Positions 2,402-35,021 of a stretch of DNA of 35,021 bases are shown here, piece after piece. The number at the start of each line of letters is the position of its first letter. Positions within the stretch are counted from its first letter, which is position 1. This DNA comes from a virus, in IMG/VR virus record IMGVR_UViG_3300030382_000226, positions 1 to 35,021 of that record, one strand, 5' to 3'. Under the pieces are notes generated by a model, which saw only the letters and a list, made by a program, of their open reading frames with translations, was not told the DNA's origin and made no database searches. Both the position numbers and the translations under genes were made by a program.

Positions 2402-2495
2402 GATAATAGGCTTTATCTTTGGCATAGGTTTTTTAATTTGGCTTACTGTCCTGATAGGTATTTATATAGCTATCAGGATATTTGAAAACCTCTAA
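2394..2495 (+). CDS. Single-span membrane peptide (33 aa), last gene of the cassette
   Basis: ATG 2394 sits inside the end of the previous gene. The 33-residue product is almost wholly hydrophobic (residues 3-29, GFIFGIGFLIWLTVLIGIYI) with a short charged end. Its stop at 2493-2495 overlaps the stop of the convergent minus-strand gene (2492-2494). No terminator is obvious between the converging genes. The coding call depends on the hydrophobic composition and the overlap coupling. Confidence 0.4.
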   Translation: MIEIIGFIFGIGFLIWLTVLIGIYIAIRIFENL

Positions 2496-2917
2496 TCTCC
2501 CTCCTCAACCAAAGCCACCCCTAAACCAATAAGGAGAATATGCTTTCTCCCATTTCGTCTTGCTTTCCTTAACAAGATCCTCTCTCCCTCTACTGCCAAC
2601 CAAATAACTTTTTTATCCACTAAAGACTGAATCGCCTTACCAACTGTTTTAGGTGTCAATCCTGTCATCTTCGCTAAATAGCTAAACGCATCTCTGCAAC
2701 TCATACTCTCTGCGCGATGTCTTTCGCAAATTGACCATAAAACCAAAGTCTCAGCAGCATTAAGATCCCTTCTCCCTGCCTGTCGTCTAAACCACTTCCA
2801 GACCACGCCTTTTAACTTCGCAAAACTTTTATACTTCTTCGCTACCCCATAGGCCACAAATCCAACATCTTCCTCGATTACACTATCCGTTGTTATCCAC
2901 CAGAACTTATCAACCAA
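2492..2917 (-). CDS. Winged-helix DNA-binding protein, possibly Rep-like
   Basis: A 141-residue protein whose start is TTG at 2917, chosen because GAGG lies 8 bases upstream and no nearby ATG is in frame. Residues 55-115 read as a winged helix (ETLVLWSICERHR, then SYLAKMTGLTPKTVGKAIQS, then a KKVIWL wing). This pattern is seen in DnaD/RepA-type replication proteins and in regulators. The N-terminus is Trp-rich (KFWWITTDS). Directly upstream lie a strong hairpin and three 22-bp repeats, so it may bind them as a replication initiator or autoregulator. This binding is inferred. Confidence 0.6.
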   Translation of the reverse strand: MVDKFWWITTDSVIEEDVGFVAYGVAKKYKSFAKLKGVVWKWFRRQAGRRDLNAAETLVLWSICERHRAESMSCRDAFSYLAKMTGLTPKTVGKAIQSLVDKKVIWLAVEGERILLRKARRNGRKHILLIGLGVALVEEGD

Positions 2918-2943: not shown

Positions 2944-2972
2944 GGGAAAATGAGCTTTAGCTCATTTCTCCC
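2944..2972. promoter_or_regulatory. Strong inverted repeat before the winged-helix gene
   Basis: GGGAAAATGAGC (2944-2955) pairs with GCTCATTTCTCCC (2960-2972) across a TTTA loop, with one unpaired base. It lies immediately upstream of the ribosome site of the winged-helix gene, with no U tract on either side. An operator or a leader hairpin controlling translation is more likely than a terminator. Confidence 0.55.
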
Positions 2973-3016
2973 TATATGTACATGTTATGTTATGGATATG
3001 CTTAACTACATTACGT

Positions 3017-3082
3017 TAAAGTCTTAACAGATCTTCCATAAAGTCTTAACAGTTCTTCTATAAAGTCTTAACAGAACTTCCA
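3017..3082. repeat. Three tandem 22-bp iteron-like repeats
   Basis: Units at 3017-3038, 3039-3060 and 3061-3082 share the core TAAAGTCTTAACAG followed by a variable pair and CTTCyA. A 22-bp period, about two helical turns, is typical of plasmid and phage replication iterons. It lies 100 bp upstream of a winged-helix gene and outside any good coding frame. A multi-site operator is the alternative. Confidence 0.75.
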
Positions 3083-3088
3083 TAAAAA

Positions 3089-5415: not shown

Positions 5416-7278
5416 CTAATTCCATTCAAATGATTTACTTCCGTCTAAGATTTCTAAAACTGCTTCTTTACGGATCAAAGTTTTGATTCCGTAATCCACG
5501 TTACCTGAATTACTTTTTACTAATGCAGCTTTAACAACTGCCATTCGGTTGAAGTCTATGCCTTGTTCTGCACAAATTCTTTCGCACGTTTCTTCGTCAG
5601 CTAACCACATTGCTATCGCAAATCTAACTGAGTCTGTAATTGATGATGCTCCACGAATTTCAGCACGATGCGTAAGAGCATCGTCAGAGTCATTCGTTAA
5701 TGCACCTTTATTAAGATGATGAACTGTTAAAGTGCTACAACCAATTCTGGCACTTATGTTCGCACAATAAGAACCCCATAATTGGCCCACTTCGTTAGAG
5801 CTAGAAACATTGCCTGTAGTAAATGCCTGGAGAGGATCAAAACAACATAACTTTAAATTAGGTATCATCTTTAATTCATCGACCAACTCTTGACCAATAG
5901 GAGTAATGCCTTCTTCTCTTAATAAGATCATTGGCTCTTTTTGTTCAGGAATAGGAAACACATAAACATCGTAAGGTGAATCAAACCTCTCACCTTTTGG
6001 ATCAAGTAGATCTATTCTCCTGTGGATCTCACTTAAATCATCCTCGGCTGCAAAGATTACGCTGTTACCTTGTTGTAGTATTTTCTTTCCCCACCAACTA
6101 CCACCTGTTGCAATGCCTAATGCCAACTGAATGACACTTAGACTTTTACCAACGCCACCGACCGCAGCAATGATGCCGGGTTTCGAGAGGGGAACAAACG
6201 AGTCTACTAACCACTCAGTCTGAGGAGGAGAGTTTACTAGATTCCGAATGGCATATTGTCGAATGTTAAACTTGGAGTCTAACAGTTCGAGTTTGACTTG
6301 CTCATTCCCCTGTTGTCTTGCTAAATCATTGTAATCACCAATGATGCTTGGCAATCTGGTTACACAATTTAAAACTGCTGTCGCAACTTCGTTGGCCTTA
6401 GTGTTGCCGACTTGGTTTTCATCATTGTCTAACGCTAAAATAAATTTACAGTTACTACCAATTATTTCTCTTAATCTGCTGAGAGCTGGCAAACAAAAGT
6501 TCGCACTAAATACCACCAAGCAAGGAACACCTGTACTCTCATAGATCGAACCTGCTGTCGCATAACCCTCACAGACGATAAGATTTGGTAAGTGCAACAG
6601 ATCATTCACATCGCAACCAATAAGGTTCACGTTGCCTCTGACAGCTCCACCACCAACAAACTTTTTATCTCCGTTTGGAAAAATATATTGTAGACTTTTT
6701 ATGTCTTTTGCTAATGTTCCGTTATCATTTTTGGTGATAGAATACACACCGACAAGTAGGTTGCCATTTACTTGTTTTAGACCATAACTTTTAACACTTT
6801 TTACATCCAGATACTTATGTTGAACAACCTCTTCAGCCGACTCAAACTTTTCTTTTGCGTATACAGCAACTTCTTCTTGTTGCTTTTCTTTAGCTTCTTG
6901 TCTCCTGGCATTAGCCTCTTCCAACTTACGCTGTAGGTCTTGCTTTTCTACAGGTGTTAAATCATTGGCTGAATAACTAAGGAACTTCCCCTCAAAAGAA
7001 CTGCGCCAATTACCAAAGACGCAAACAAATTTTTCGTGGTCGATCTGATTGAAAACATAATACCCAGATGCCTCGCCTACTTTATCAGGTCGACAGTTTG
7101 CAACTGCTCCAACTTTACAGCGAACTAAATCACCGCTCATGTCTATATAATCAACCAACAAACCATGCGTCTGCATCTCGTTCATTAGGTCTTGAATACT
7201 TTTACCCTTATTGGCAAAAGCAAAGTTAGGATCTATCGCTAGGCCCTCTTCTCCAAAAAACTGTGTTAGATCAGTCAT
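5416..7278 (-). CDS. Toprim-AAA primase/helicase-type replication protein
   Basis: A 620-residue two-part protein. A Toprim-like domain at about 225-310 has VCEGYATAG (Glu at 237) and LALDNDENQ (DND at 284-286). A RepA-like AAA domain from about 350 has Walker A GGVGKS (374-379), a Walker-B-like LCCFDPLQAF (Asp481) and a TVHHLNKG sensor region at 518-525. A charged helix (about 105-145, rich in Glu, Lys and Arg) precedes the Toprim part. Such fusions act as helicases with primase-related domains at replication forks. No DNA polymerase is present, so replication would use the host's. It overlaps the upstream gene by 8 bases. Confidence 0.85.
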   Translation of the reverse strand: MTDLTQFFGEEGLAIDPNFAFANKGKSIQDLMNEMQTHGLLVDYIDMSGDLVRCKVGAVANCRPDKVGEASGYYVFNQIDHEKFVCVFGNWRSSFEGKFLSYSANDLTPVEKQDLQRKLEEANARRQEAKEKQQEEVAVYAKEKFESAEEVVQHKYLDVKSVKSYGLKQVNGNLLVGVYSITKNDNGTLAKDIKSLQYIFPNGDKKFVGGGAVRGNVNLIGCDVNDLLHLPNLIVCEGYATAGSIYESTGVPCLVVFSANFCLPALSRLREIIGSNCKFILALDNDENQVGNTKANEVATAVLNCVTRLPSIIGDYNDLARQQGNEQVKLELLDSKFNIRQYAIRNLVNSPPQTEWLVDSFVPLSKPGIIAAVGGVGKSLSVIQLALGIATGGSWWGKKILQQGNSVIFAAEDDLSEIHRRIDLLDPKGERFDSPYDVYVFPIPEQKEPMILLREEGITPIGQELVDELKMIPNLKLCCFDPLQAFTTGNVSSSNEVGQLWGSYCANISARIGCSTLTVHHLNKGALTNDSDDALTHRAEIRGASSITDSVRFAIAMWLADEETCERICAEQGIDFNRMAVVKAALVKSNSGNVDYGIKTLIRKEAVLEILDGSKSFEWN

Positions 7279-11050: not shown

Positions 11051-11242
11051 TTAACTTGCGACTGGTTCGATTGTTGATTTGTTTTCTGTTTCTTCTATAA
11101 CCTGAAGATCATAAAGAACTTTACCACCCATTTTGGAATAGGCTGGGCCTTTACCTTGCGCCCGATAGTTAGCTAGTGTTCTTGGAGATTTTCTCCATCT
11201 TTCTGCAAGCTCCTCTTGTGTAAGCCAAACTTTATTGTTCAT
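11051..11242 (-). CDS. xis: Excisionase-like HTH protein
   Basis: A 63-residue helix-turn-helix (HTH_17/AlpA type): WLTQEELAERWRKSPRTLAN at 6-25, followed by YRAQGKGPAYSKMGGKVLYD. Such proteins bend DNA at att sites to direct excision, or act as regulators. It stands near the integrase and an attP-like site. TGAGG precedes the ATG at 11242. It is the last gene before an AT-rich divergent region, so it may also control the promoters there. Confidence 0.7.
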   Translation of the reverse strand: MNNKVWLTQEELAERWRKSPRTLANYRAQGKGPAYSKMGGKVLYDLQVIEETENKSTIEPVAS

Positions 11243-11396
11243 TTATTTACCTCATTGTTCACGATTATGTTATTCTACTACATAGTTTTTTAAGAAAGCA
11301 AATTTTAAAAAAAAAATCTTATAAAAATATTTTTTTAATTTGCAATAAAAAAAATTAATTTTTAAAAAAAAATTTTAAATTTACACGGAGCAAAAA
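11243..11396. promoter_or_regulatory. Very AT-rich divergent intergenic region
   Basis: It lies between the excisionase-like gene (leftward) and the DUF3310 gene (rightward). From about 11285 to 11385 it is almost wholly A and T, in long homopolymer runs. It probably holds promoters for both genes and may be a curved or easily melted DNA unwinding element. No single promoter can be chosen with confidence. Confidence 0.45.
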
Positions 11397-33587: not shown

Positions 33588-35021
33588 TAACCTACTCGTA
33601 GAATTTTGGATTTTAAAGGTTTCTTGAAATTATAACCCAAAAAGGAAGTTCCTCCACCAAAACTTGCAGCCGAACTTGCCATGGTTAATGCAAGTGCATC
33701 TGCTTTGTCTGGAGATTTAATTCCTCTTTTTTTCATTTCTTCTTTTGACTCTATTTTTATTTTTCCTGTTGATGTATATTTGTAGGAAGGCGCAACCAAT
33801 TCCGCTACAAGCTCATCATCATAAGGAAGTCGGCAATCACGTTGCGCCAACCAATCTTTTATCGCAAACCACAATTCTGCTCTCAGGTTTAAATAGTTTT
33901 TACTGGTCGCTGGAGACTCAGATACATTAACACCCCTAACAGGTAAATTTTGTTCTGAAAGTCTGTCAACAACACCACTACCTAAACCAATTACGTCTAT
34001 AAGGATCTCTTGTGGTCTGTTCATTGCGGTTGCATCATCGTATAAGTTTTTAACCGCACCGCATAATTGCATTAAATCCATCGATTTAAAAGTCTTAATT
34101 TCAAAAACTGTGTTGCCCTGTCTGACACATAGTGCTGAGTTATCGCCACCAAATCTAGCTACGTCTAATCCCCAAACTATCGGATCACTTGCGCTGAGTG
34201 CAACATCTCTACCTAATGCTGCTCTGGCAAGTTCCATTGGAATAACAGAATCATCGTCTGCATGGGGAAACTCACCTAGAACTTCTACTCTAGCGACTGT
34301 TGAATCTTCACCATATTGTTCAAGCATGGATTGAAAGAGGTTTTGGTCAGTTCCCTCAACTGTGCGTGAGTCGATTTGCTCTAATTCCCAGAATTTACGC
34401 TTGGAATGGAAAGAATCATAGAATGGGCCTGTGTTTCTGCGTGGATTTGAGAAGGTAAACCAAAAACGATTTTCGGTGGGTTCGGAGAAAAACCCCTCTG
34501 ATACGGAATATATAGGCGCAGGAATGCCTGATGCCTCATCCATGATGAGACAAACTCCGTAGTTAGAGTGAATACCAGCAAATGCGTCTGGGTTTTCTTC
34601 ACTCCATAACTGCGCTTGAGCGTAGTAGTAGCCTGTATCTATTTTAAGATCTCTTTTTAGTGCTTCTTCAAACCACGCTTCAGGTTTAATTGTGGTAGCT
34701 GTTTTTGTAAACCAATGATTGTTAATCGAAAGCGTTAGCCATTTACCTAATTCCGCCCAAGTTCTACTTCTAAGCTGCTGTTCGGTGTTAGCGGTAACGA
34801 TAATGGTAGAACCAGCTCTGGTTGAGAGCATCCAAAGTATGAGCCATGCGACCAAGGCTGATTTGCCGATACCACGACCACTTGCGACAGCAAGTCTAAA
34901 CATCTCTGGTGTGGCTTTTCCGTTGTTGCGTTGTATGTGTATGGAAATATCTCGTAAAATTTTTTCCTGCCACTTGCGAGGGCCTGTAAATTCTTCGAGG
35001 GGGGTGCCTGGTTCTCCCCAA
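33587..35021 (-). CDS. terL: Terminase large subunit, main part (continues at 168-1)
   Basis: The frame is open from the right end (35021) to TAA at 33587. Together with 1-168 it makes about 510 residues. In that numbering Walker A (SGRGIGKS) ends near 87, Walker B (CLIMDEASG) has Asp194 and Glu195, and FSNPRRNTG follows as coupling motif. The nuclease domain has WGLDVARFGGDN (Asp319), ILIDVIGLGSG (Asp375) and DKADALALTMA (Asp474). It is the ATP-driven packaging motor and endonuclease. The ATG at 34903 is internal and not the true start. Complete catalytic residues suggest activity. Confidence 0.93.
   Translation of the reverse strand, partial: WGEPGTPLEEFTGPRKWQEKILRDISIHIQRNNGKATPEMFRLAVASGRGIGKSALVAWLILWMLSTRAGSTIIVTANTEQQLRSRTWAELGKWLTLSINNHWFTKTATTIKPEAWFEEALKRDLKIDTGYYYAQAQLWSEENPDAFAGIHSNYGVCLIMDEASGIPAPIYSVSEGFFSEPTENRFWFTFSNPRRNTGPFYDSFHSKRKFWELEQIDSRTVEGTDQNLFQSMLEQYGEDSTVARVEVLGEFPHADDDSVIPMELARAALGRDVALSASDPIVWGLDVARFGGDNSALCVRQGNTVFEIKTFKSMDLMQLCGAVKNLYDDATAMNRPQEILIDVIGLGSGVVDRLSEQNLPVRGVNVSESPATSKNYLNLRAELWFAIKDWLAQRDCRLPYDDELVAELVAPSYKYTSTGKIKIESKEEMKKRGIKSPDKADALALTMASSAASFGGGTSFLGYNFKKPLKSKILRVG
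34952..35020. repeat. Terminal assembly overlap, identical to 1-69
   Basis: These 69 bases match the first 69 bases of the window. The next base differs (35021 is a; base 70 is g), a synonymous Pro codon change in terL. It lies within coding sequence, so it marks circular closure rather than a packaged direct terminal repeat. Confidence 0.9.

Follow-up and report, generated by a model that had tools for sequence, protein, structure and literature searches.

A conserved 22-bp repeat module beside a small winged-helix gene as a probable IncQ-like replication origin of uncultured phages

In P4, with its alpha protein, iterons mark an origin that lies next to a replicative helicase encoded by the element itself. 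The same combination is described for the SaPI Rep and SCCmec Cch2 systems (PMC7581432). In phage lambda, the initiator O binds iterons beside an AT-rich tract (PMC7466680). The origins of IncQ plasmids are built from three direct repeats, two palindromes and an AT-rich region (PMC7557826); the repeats are recognised by RepC, the DNA is unwound by RepA and priming by the primase RepB' begins at the stem-loops ssiA and ssiB once these are exposed (PMC4234260). The features of the locus described here suggest that region 2944–3086 of a virus genome is most likely the replication origin of the phage, with the adjacent winged-helix gene encoding the initiator. The module is probably an iteron-type origin together with its initiator, organised like the oriV of IncQ/RSF1010.

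The window, i.e., the whole stretch of DNA that was analysed, is an IMG/VR virus record of 35,021 bp. Its ends overlap by 69 bp (1–69 = 34952–35020); therefore, the contig is circular (or circularly permuted) and represents a near-complete genome, in which the gene of the large terminase spans the contig junction. The genome encodes a portal protein, large and small terminase subunits, a primase-helicase, recombination genes and an integrase, the presence of the latter being in agreement with the initial annotation. The winged-helix gene is the last gene of a long leftward operon. It follows the array on the minus strand, and the array itself follows a gene for a protein of 67 aa. The features of the locus are listed in Table 1.

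Table 1. Coordinates of the putative origin module and associated genes in the window.
Feature	Position	Strand	Details
22-bp array, three units	3017..3086	minus	reads TGGAAGWTCTGTTAAGACTTTA on the minus strand; units in minus-strand order: 3061–3082, 3039–3060, 3017–3038
Degenerate fourth unit (weak candidate)	3000..3016	minus	ACGTAATGTAGTTAAGC; GTTAAG in the 22-bp register; from alignment
ATATCC motif abutting the array	2994..2999	minus	from alignment and relatives
AT-rich block with CATAA pentamers	2973..2993	minus	site of palindrome 1 in most relatives
Hairpin 2	2944..2972	minus	GGGAGAAATGAGCTAAAGCTCATTTTCCC; arms change together in relatives
141-aa winged-helix protein, predicted initiator	2492..2917	minus	TTG start at 2917
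TOPRIM-AAA_25 primase-helicase	5416..7278	minus	helicase half homologous to RSF1010 RepA

The initial annotation reported three direct repeats with a 22-bp period 100 bp before the winged-helix gene, with a hairpin in between, and this description is accurate. The repeats (3017–3042, 3039–3064 and 3061–3086) are spaced by exactly 22 bp and were detected by TRF with a score of 119 and 89% matches. A 20-bp pattern with up to three mismatches matched only the three array places in 35 kb, and three matches of this pattern occurred in none of 100 dinucleotide shuffles of the sequence. The three repeats are real, far beyond chance and unique in the window; a PWM scan of the window genome yielded no further sites comparable to the array units. 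The register alone points, weakly, to a degenerate fourth unit. The AT-rich block is only mildly unstable, 4–15% of genome windows being less stable. The hairpin between the array and the gene has a folding energy of −16 kcal/mol (z = −2.9). Its identification as an ordinary terminator in the direction of the winged-helix gene was rejected, as no T-run follows the stem on that strand; in two relatives it resembles a terminator, but only on the opposite strand. An Rfam search with the window and its relatives gave no match.

Relatives were collected in a first protein scan (16 virus contigs), a profile scan (38) and with the profile from the enlarged set (236 IMG/VR relatives, 80 kept). Up to 260 bp of the upstream stretch were taken per relative, and 74 relatives had usable upstream DNA. 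No relative was detected among cultured phages with the window and the L091-type proteins, among plasmids with the L090-type protein, or among bacterial genomes.

In all 74 relatives checked, the module sits just upstream of the winged-helix gene or its operon, and exactly one ATATCC[A/G]T is present in the upstream stretch of each. The order is constant: the array with a spacing of 21–23 bp, then ATATCC[A/G]T and then the hairpins. The array exceeded all 15 base shuffles in 70 of 73 relatives, and the spacing was exactly 22 + 22 bp in 58 of these 70. The arrays fall into 15 sequence clusters, while the spacing, motif and hairpins persist. The arrays frequently terminate in an inverted half-unit immediately next to ATATCC, and palindromic units also occur. 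An AT-rich palindrome (palindrome 1) lies behind ATATCC in all 52 distinct leaders, compared to about 15% of shuffles; its arms form 23 different pairs, e.g., ATACCAT/ATGGTAT, ATAGCAT/ATGCTAT and ATAACAT/ATGTTAT. Palindrome 1 is followed by the second hairpin; both are conserved in most relatives, with arms that vary in concert. In the clade of the window, the right arm of palindrome 1 is missing and hairpin 2 is kept. A search for the exact 19-nt AT block revealed seven new contigs; in each of them, the block is directly preceded by an array and followed by a hairpin, and a diverged winged-helix gene is present. Two further array types were found among them. A search with a degenerate block, serving as a negative control, returned 24 chance matches with neither an array nor a winged-helix gene. 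In the ten near-complete genomes scanned, array-like sites are essentially confined to this locus, apart from a few isolated and weaker matches. Loss of the repeats from relatives that retain the gene had been named at the outset as evidence against the origin; no such loss occurred, and the repeats are kept.

The relatives can be divided into groups. In group 1 (L002, L005, L007 and L008), the array and hairpin of the window are preserved, the latter with paired changes (GAGC/GCTC vs. GGTC/GACC). In group 2 (L003, L004, L006 and L009–L011), an extra gene for a 121-aa protein separates the module from the winged-helix gene, and the array, AT block and hairpin are retained upstream of this extra gene. 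The extra gene is located at L003:2925–3290, L009:4629–4994 and L011:4546–4947 and overlaps the winged-helix gene with a TAGTTG stop/start. The extra protein matched no known family, and its structure model was poor. In group 3, the winged-helix protein is 51% identical, the repeat is a different one, TGGCACTAGTAGTACC, with the same 22-bp spacing, and a related AT block is accompanied by a different hairpin and the motif ATATCC[A/C]. The array scores were above those of shuffles in groups 1, 3 and 2a and in L038. In group 2b (L009–L011), one unit is inverted and two are direct; this arrangement is detected by the pair score and missed by the triple score.

Two side observations concern group 3. 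In L013 and L015, the spacer that separates array units 2 and 3 is present in two mutually inverted versions, CCCTTCATAGG and CCTATGAAGGG, flanked by inverted repeats as if it had been flipped repeatedly. A conserved frame of 58 aa ends within the third array unit (L083:5647–5823 and equivalents in L012–L037) and holds a long-range inverted repeat, GATTGTGCAATCGGG...CCTGGTTGCACAATC, of which a compensated version exists in L037; this frame may be a gene or a structured element.

The dependence of the array on the neighbouring proteins was analysed in 39 dereplicated loci. Array distance was correlated with winged-helix distance when primase distance was taken into account (partial correlation 0.67, permutation p = 0.0005), whereas the partial correlation of array distance with primase distance, given the winged-helix protein, was −0.07. 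Individual pairs of loci illustrate this. In L003 and L154, the primases differ by 13% and the winged-helix proteins by 58%, and the arrays are unrelated; in L191 and L187, the primases differ by 27% and the winged-helix proteins by 4%, and the array is the same. Extra genes that are 88% identical (L003 and L009) are paired with different arrays, and extra genes as diverged as those of L009 and L011 (the latter being 53% identical to that of L003) share an array type. The extra gene was excluded as the array binder, the array type being independent of it. As judged from these comparisons, the array type tracks the winged-helix protein and neither the extra gene nor the primase-helicase. This co-variation could partly reflect the linkage of neighbours, with the array and the gene inherited as one cassette, but this explanation is weakened because another gene intervenes in the group 2 loci.

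The winged-helix protein matches the Pfam family HTH_36 (E = 6 × 10⁻⁷, 29.6 bits against a gathering score of 25), and several of its relatives remain below the gathering score. Its best family matches are phage initiators, namely PHROG replication-initiation families with E = 1 × 10⁻⁵ to 4 × 10⁻⁴; the 141-aa protein covers only the DNA-binding part of known initiators (268–383 positions). Matches to HTH_36 and replication-initiation PHROGs were found in several clades, and several clade representatives showed no replication-family match. The match to the model of the O N-terminal domain, TIGR01610, is weak (E = 0.002, 18.5 bits against a cut-off of 45.5), and the score with Phage_rep_O is 13 bits, under the cut-off of 28.7; at the curated cut-offs, the protein would not be classed as a full-length O-type protein. 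Neither Pfam nor NCBIfam gave a RepC-type match. With a pLDDT of 63, the AlphaFold model is weak, and the fold search with it pointed to generic winged helices only, which is not discriminating. The comparison of the profile with sequences of solved structures gave no meaningful match.

The constant companion of the module is the primase-helicase (AAA_25, E = 6.6 × 10⁻²⁹), residues 349–591 of which match RSF1010 RepA (PDB 1g8y, E = 1.8 × 10⁻⁹). The same TOPRIM-AAA_25 protein is encoded in all 67 loci with a primase match, and it is present wherever 5 kb or more of upstream sequence were available. Its gene often ends about 200 bp before the winged-helix gene, the array then being located between both. 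Homologous primase-helicases are found in two cultured phages, Alteromonas phage PB15 and Idiomarinaceae phage 1N2-2. In these phages, the primase-helicase gene is directly followed by short repeats: seven copies of GGTTCAC in 451 bp in PB15 (L084:8897–9347) and eight copies of CGGTACA in 265 bp in 1N2-2 (L085:9008–9272). These repeats are unannotated, occur in both orientations with a central hairpin and look like P4-type origins.

The resemblance to the RSF1010/IncQ oriV comprises direct repeats, about three in number and each spanning two helical turns (22 bp here and 20 bp in RSF1010), an adjoining AT-rich stretch, two palindromes, of which the first is incomplete in the clade of the window, a separate iteron-binding protein, which is predicted for the present locus, and a homologous RepA-type helicase. 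In contrast to RSF1010, the primase and helicase are fused in one TOPRIM-containing protein, both palindromes are consecutive and directly follow ATATCC, and the module resides in phages of 31–37 kb. The putative initiator of 141 aa also differs, and because it has no RepC-type match the module is not filed as a member of the IncQ/RSF1010 group. The origin of lambda is similar in having iterons by an AT-rich tract, and the weak TIGR01610 match points the same way; however, the iterons here are located upstream of the gene and not within it, the C-terminal half is missing from the protein and the helicase is phage-encoded. The P4 alpha, SaPI and SCCmec systems share the iteron-marked origin by an own helicase, a pattern that PB15 and 1N2-2 show as well, but here the array specificity appears to follow a separate small protein and not the helicase.

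In this reading, the winged-helix protein would contact the 22-bp units, which are two helical turns apart, from the same side of the double helix. It would melt the neighbouring ATATCC/AT-rich segment and assist in loading the RepA-type primase-helicase. The hairpins could serve as single-strand priming signals, like ssiA and ssiB of RSF1010. Since the array directly precedes the initiator gene, binding may also regulate the expression of the initiator, and such autoregulation may exist in addition to the origin role. The suggestion of an iteron origin made in the initial annotation is strongly supported, on comparative grounds, by the conserved layout, the co-variation of array and winged-helix protein, the restriction of the sites to the locus and the constant presence of the RepA-type primase-helicase.

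Autoregulation alone is the main rival to the origin. Here, the winged-helix protein would be a transcription regulator acting on three operators before its own gene and the hairpin a leader or attenuator, with no origin involved. The array directly upstream of the gene, the generic regulator-like fold matches, the inverted half-units at the array ends and the palindromic units, as operators can have, are all compatible with this; nevertheless, we consider it unlikely. The sites occur essentially nowhere else in the ten genomes, and a regulator would therefore control only itself. The window region yielded no sigma-70-like promoter, and both the invariant ATATCC with its palindromes and the constant link to the RepA-type primase-helicase are left unexplained.

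Alternatively, the locus could be an origin at which the primase-helicase itself binds the array in the manner of P4 alpha, the winged-helix protein being an accessory factor. The many short iterons immediately after the homologous primase gene in PB15 and 1N2-2 would fit, as would the failure to detect a winged-helix relative in phage records. The near-zero partial correlation with primase distance speaks against it, as do similar primases with unrelated arrays and more distant ones with the same array, and it is judged highly improbable. Three spaced repeats with a small winged-helix binder would also suit a packaging or partition site, where the protein would be a small terminase acting on cosB-like R sites or a TubR-type centromere binder. 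The gene of the small terminase subunit is indeed only about 2 kb away, but it is a separate gene (PHROG, E = 5.6 × 10⁻²¹), no tubZ-like gene was seen downstream and the array accompanies the primase-helicase; such a site is barely credible. An iteron-type origin with its own initiator is, hence, the preferred reading.

A shift in GC skew had been proposed as a sign of the origin, and it provides no support, because the raw change is located at about 2.4 kb, where the genes switch strand, and follows gene orientation. In ten genomes, the skew at four-fold sites tended to be weakest close to the array, on either side of it, with no consistent reversal there. Compositional skew is supporting rather than defining for origins, especially in phages. 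A plasmid-like mode of lysogeny had also been considered. It is unlikely to be the main function of the module because relatives without an integrase keep the module: no integrase was detectable in near-complete relatives such as G005 and G007 (about 32.6 kb, syntenic with the window), nor in 9 of 12 other contigs of 30–37 kb, which may be incomplete.

The origins of uncultured phages are seldom located from sequence alone. The 150-bp module with its searchable invariant core marks a probable origin in more than 200 virus contigs, in a family for which the cultured-phage, plasmid and bacterial-genome collections searched gave no relative. The 15 repeat types and their matching small winged-helix proteins offer a natural series in which the joint change of initiator and origin specificity could be followed. 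If the organisation is indeed like that of the IncQ oriV, a plasmid-type replication mechanism would operate in phages of 31–37 kb. A broader proposal is that these loci are a widespread new class of origin–initiator cassettes, with an invariant ATATCC[A/G]T core and palindromes, diversifying 22-bp arrays with matching initiators and IncQ-like strand displacement, exchanged between phages sharing the primase-helicase and possibly escaping cross-interference during co-infection; it is put forward tentatively, and we lean somewhat towards doubting it.

Two further features of the window genome deserve mention. An excisionase-like HTH_17 gene lies beside a divergent intergenic region (window 11051–11242; G005:24890–25102). 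Because of this position and its retention in relatives without an integrase, the gene product may be an early regulator instead of an excisionase. AT-rich imperfect tandem repeats are located at 11300–11382, in the divergent intergenic region that separates the HTH_17 gene from the DUF3310 gene.
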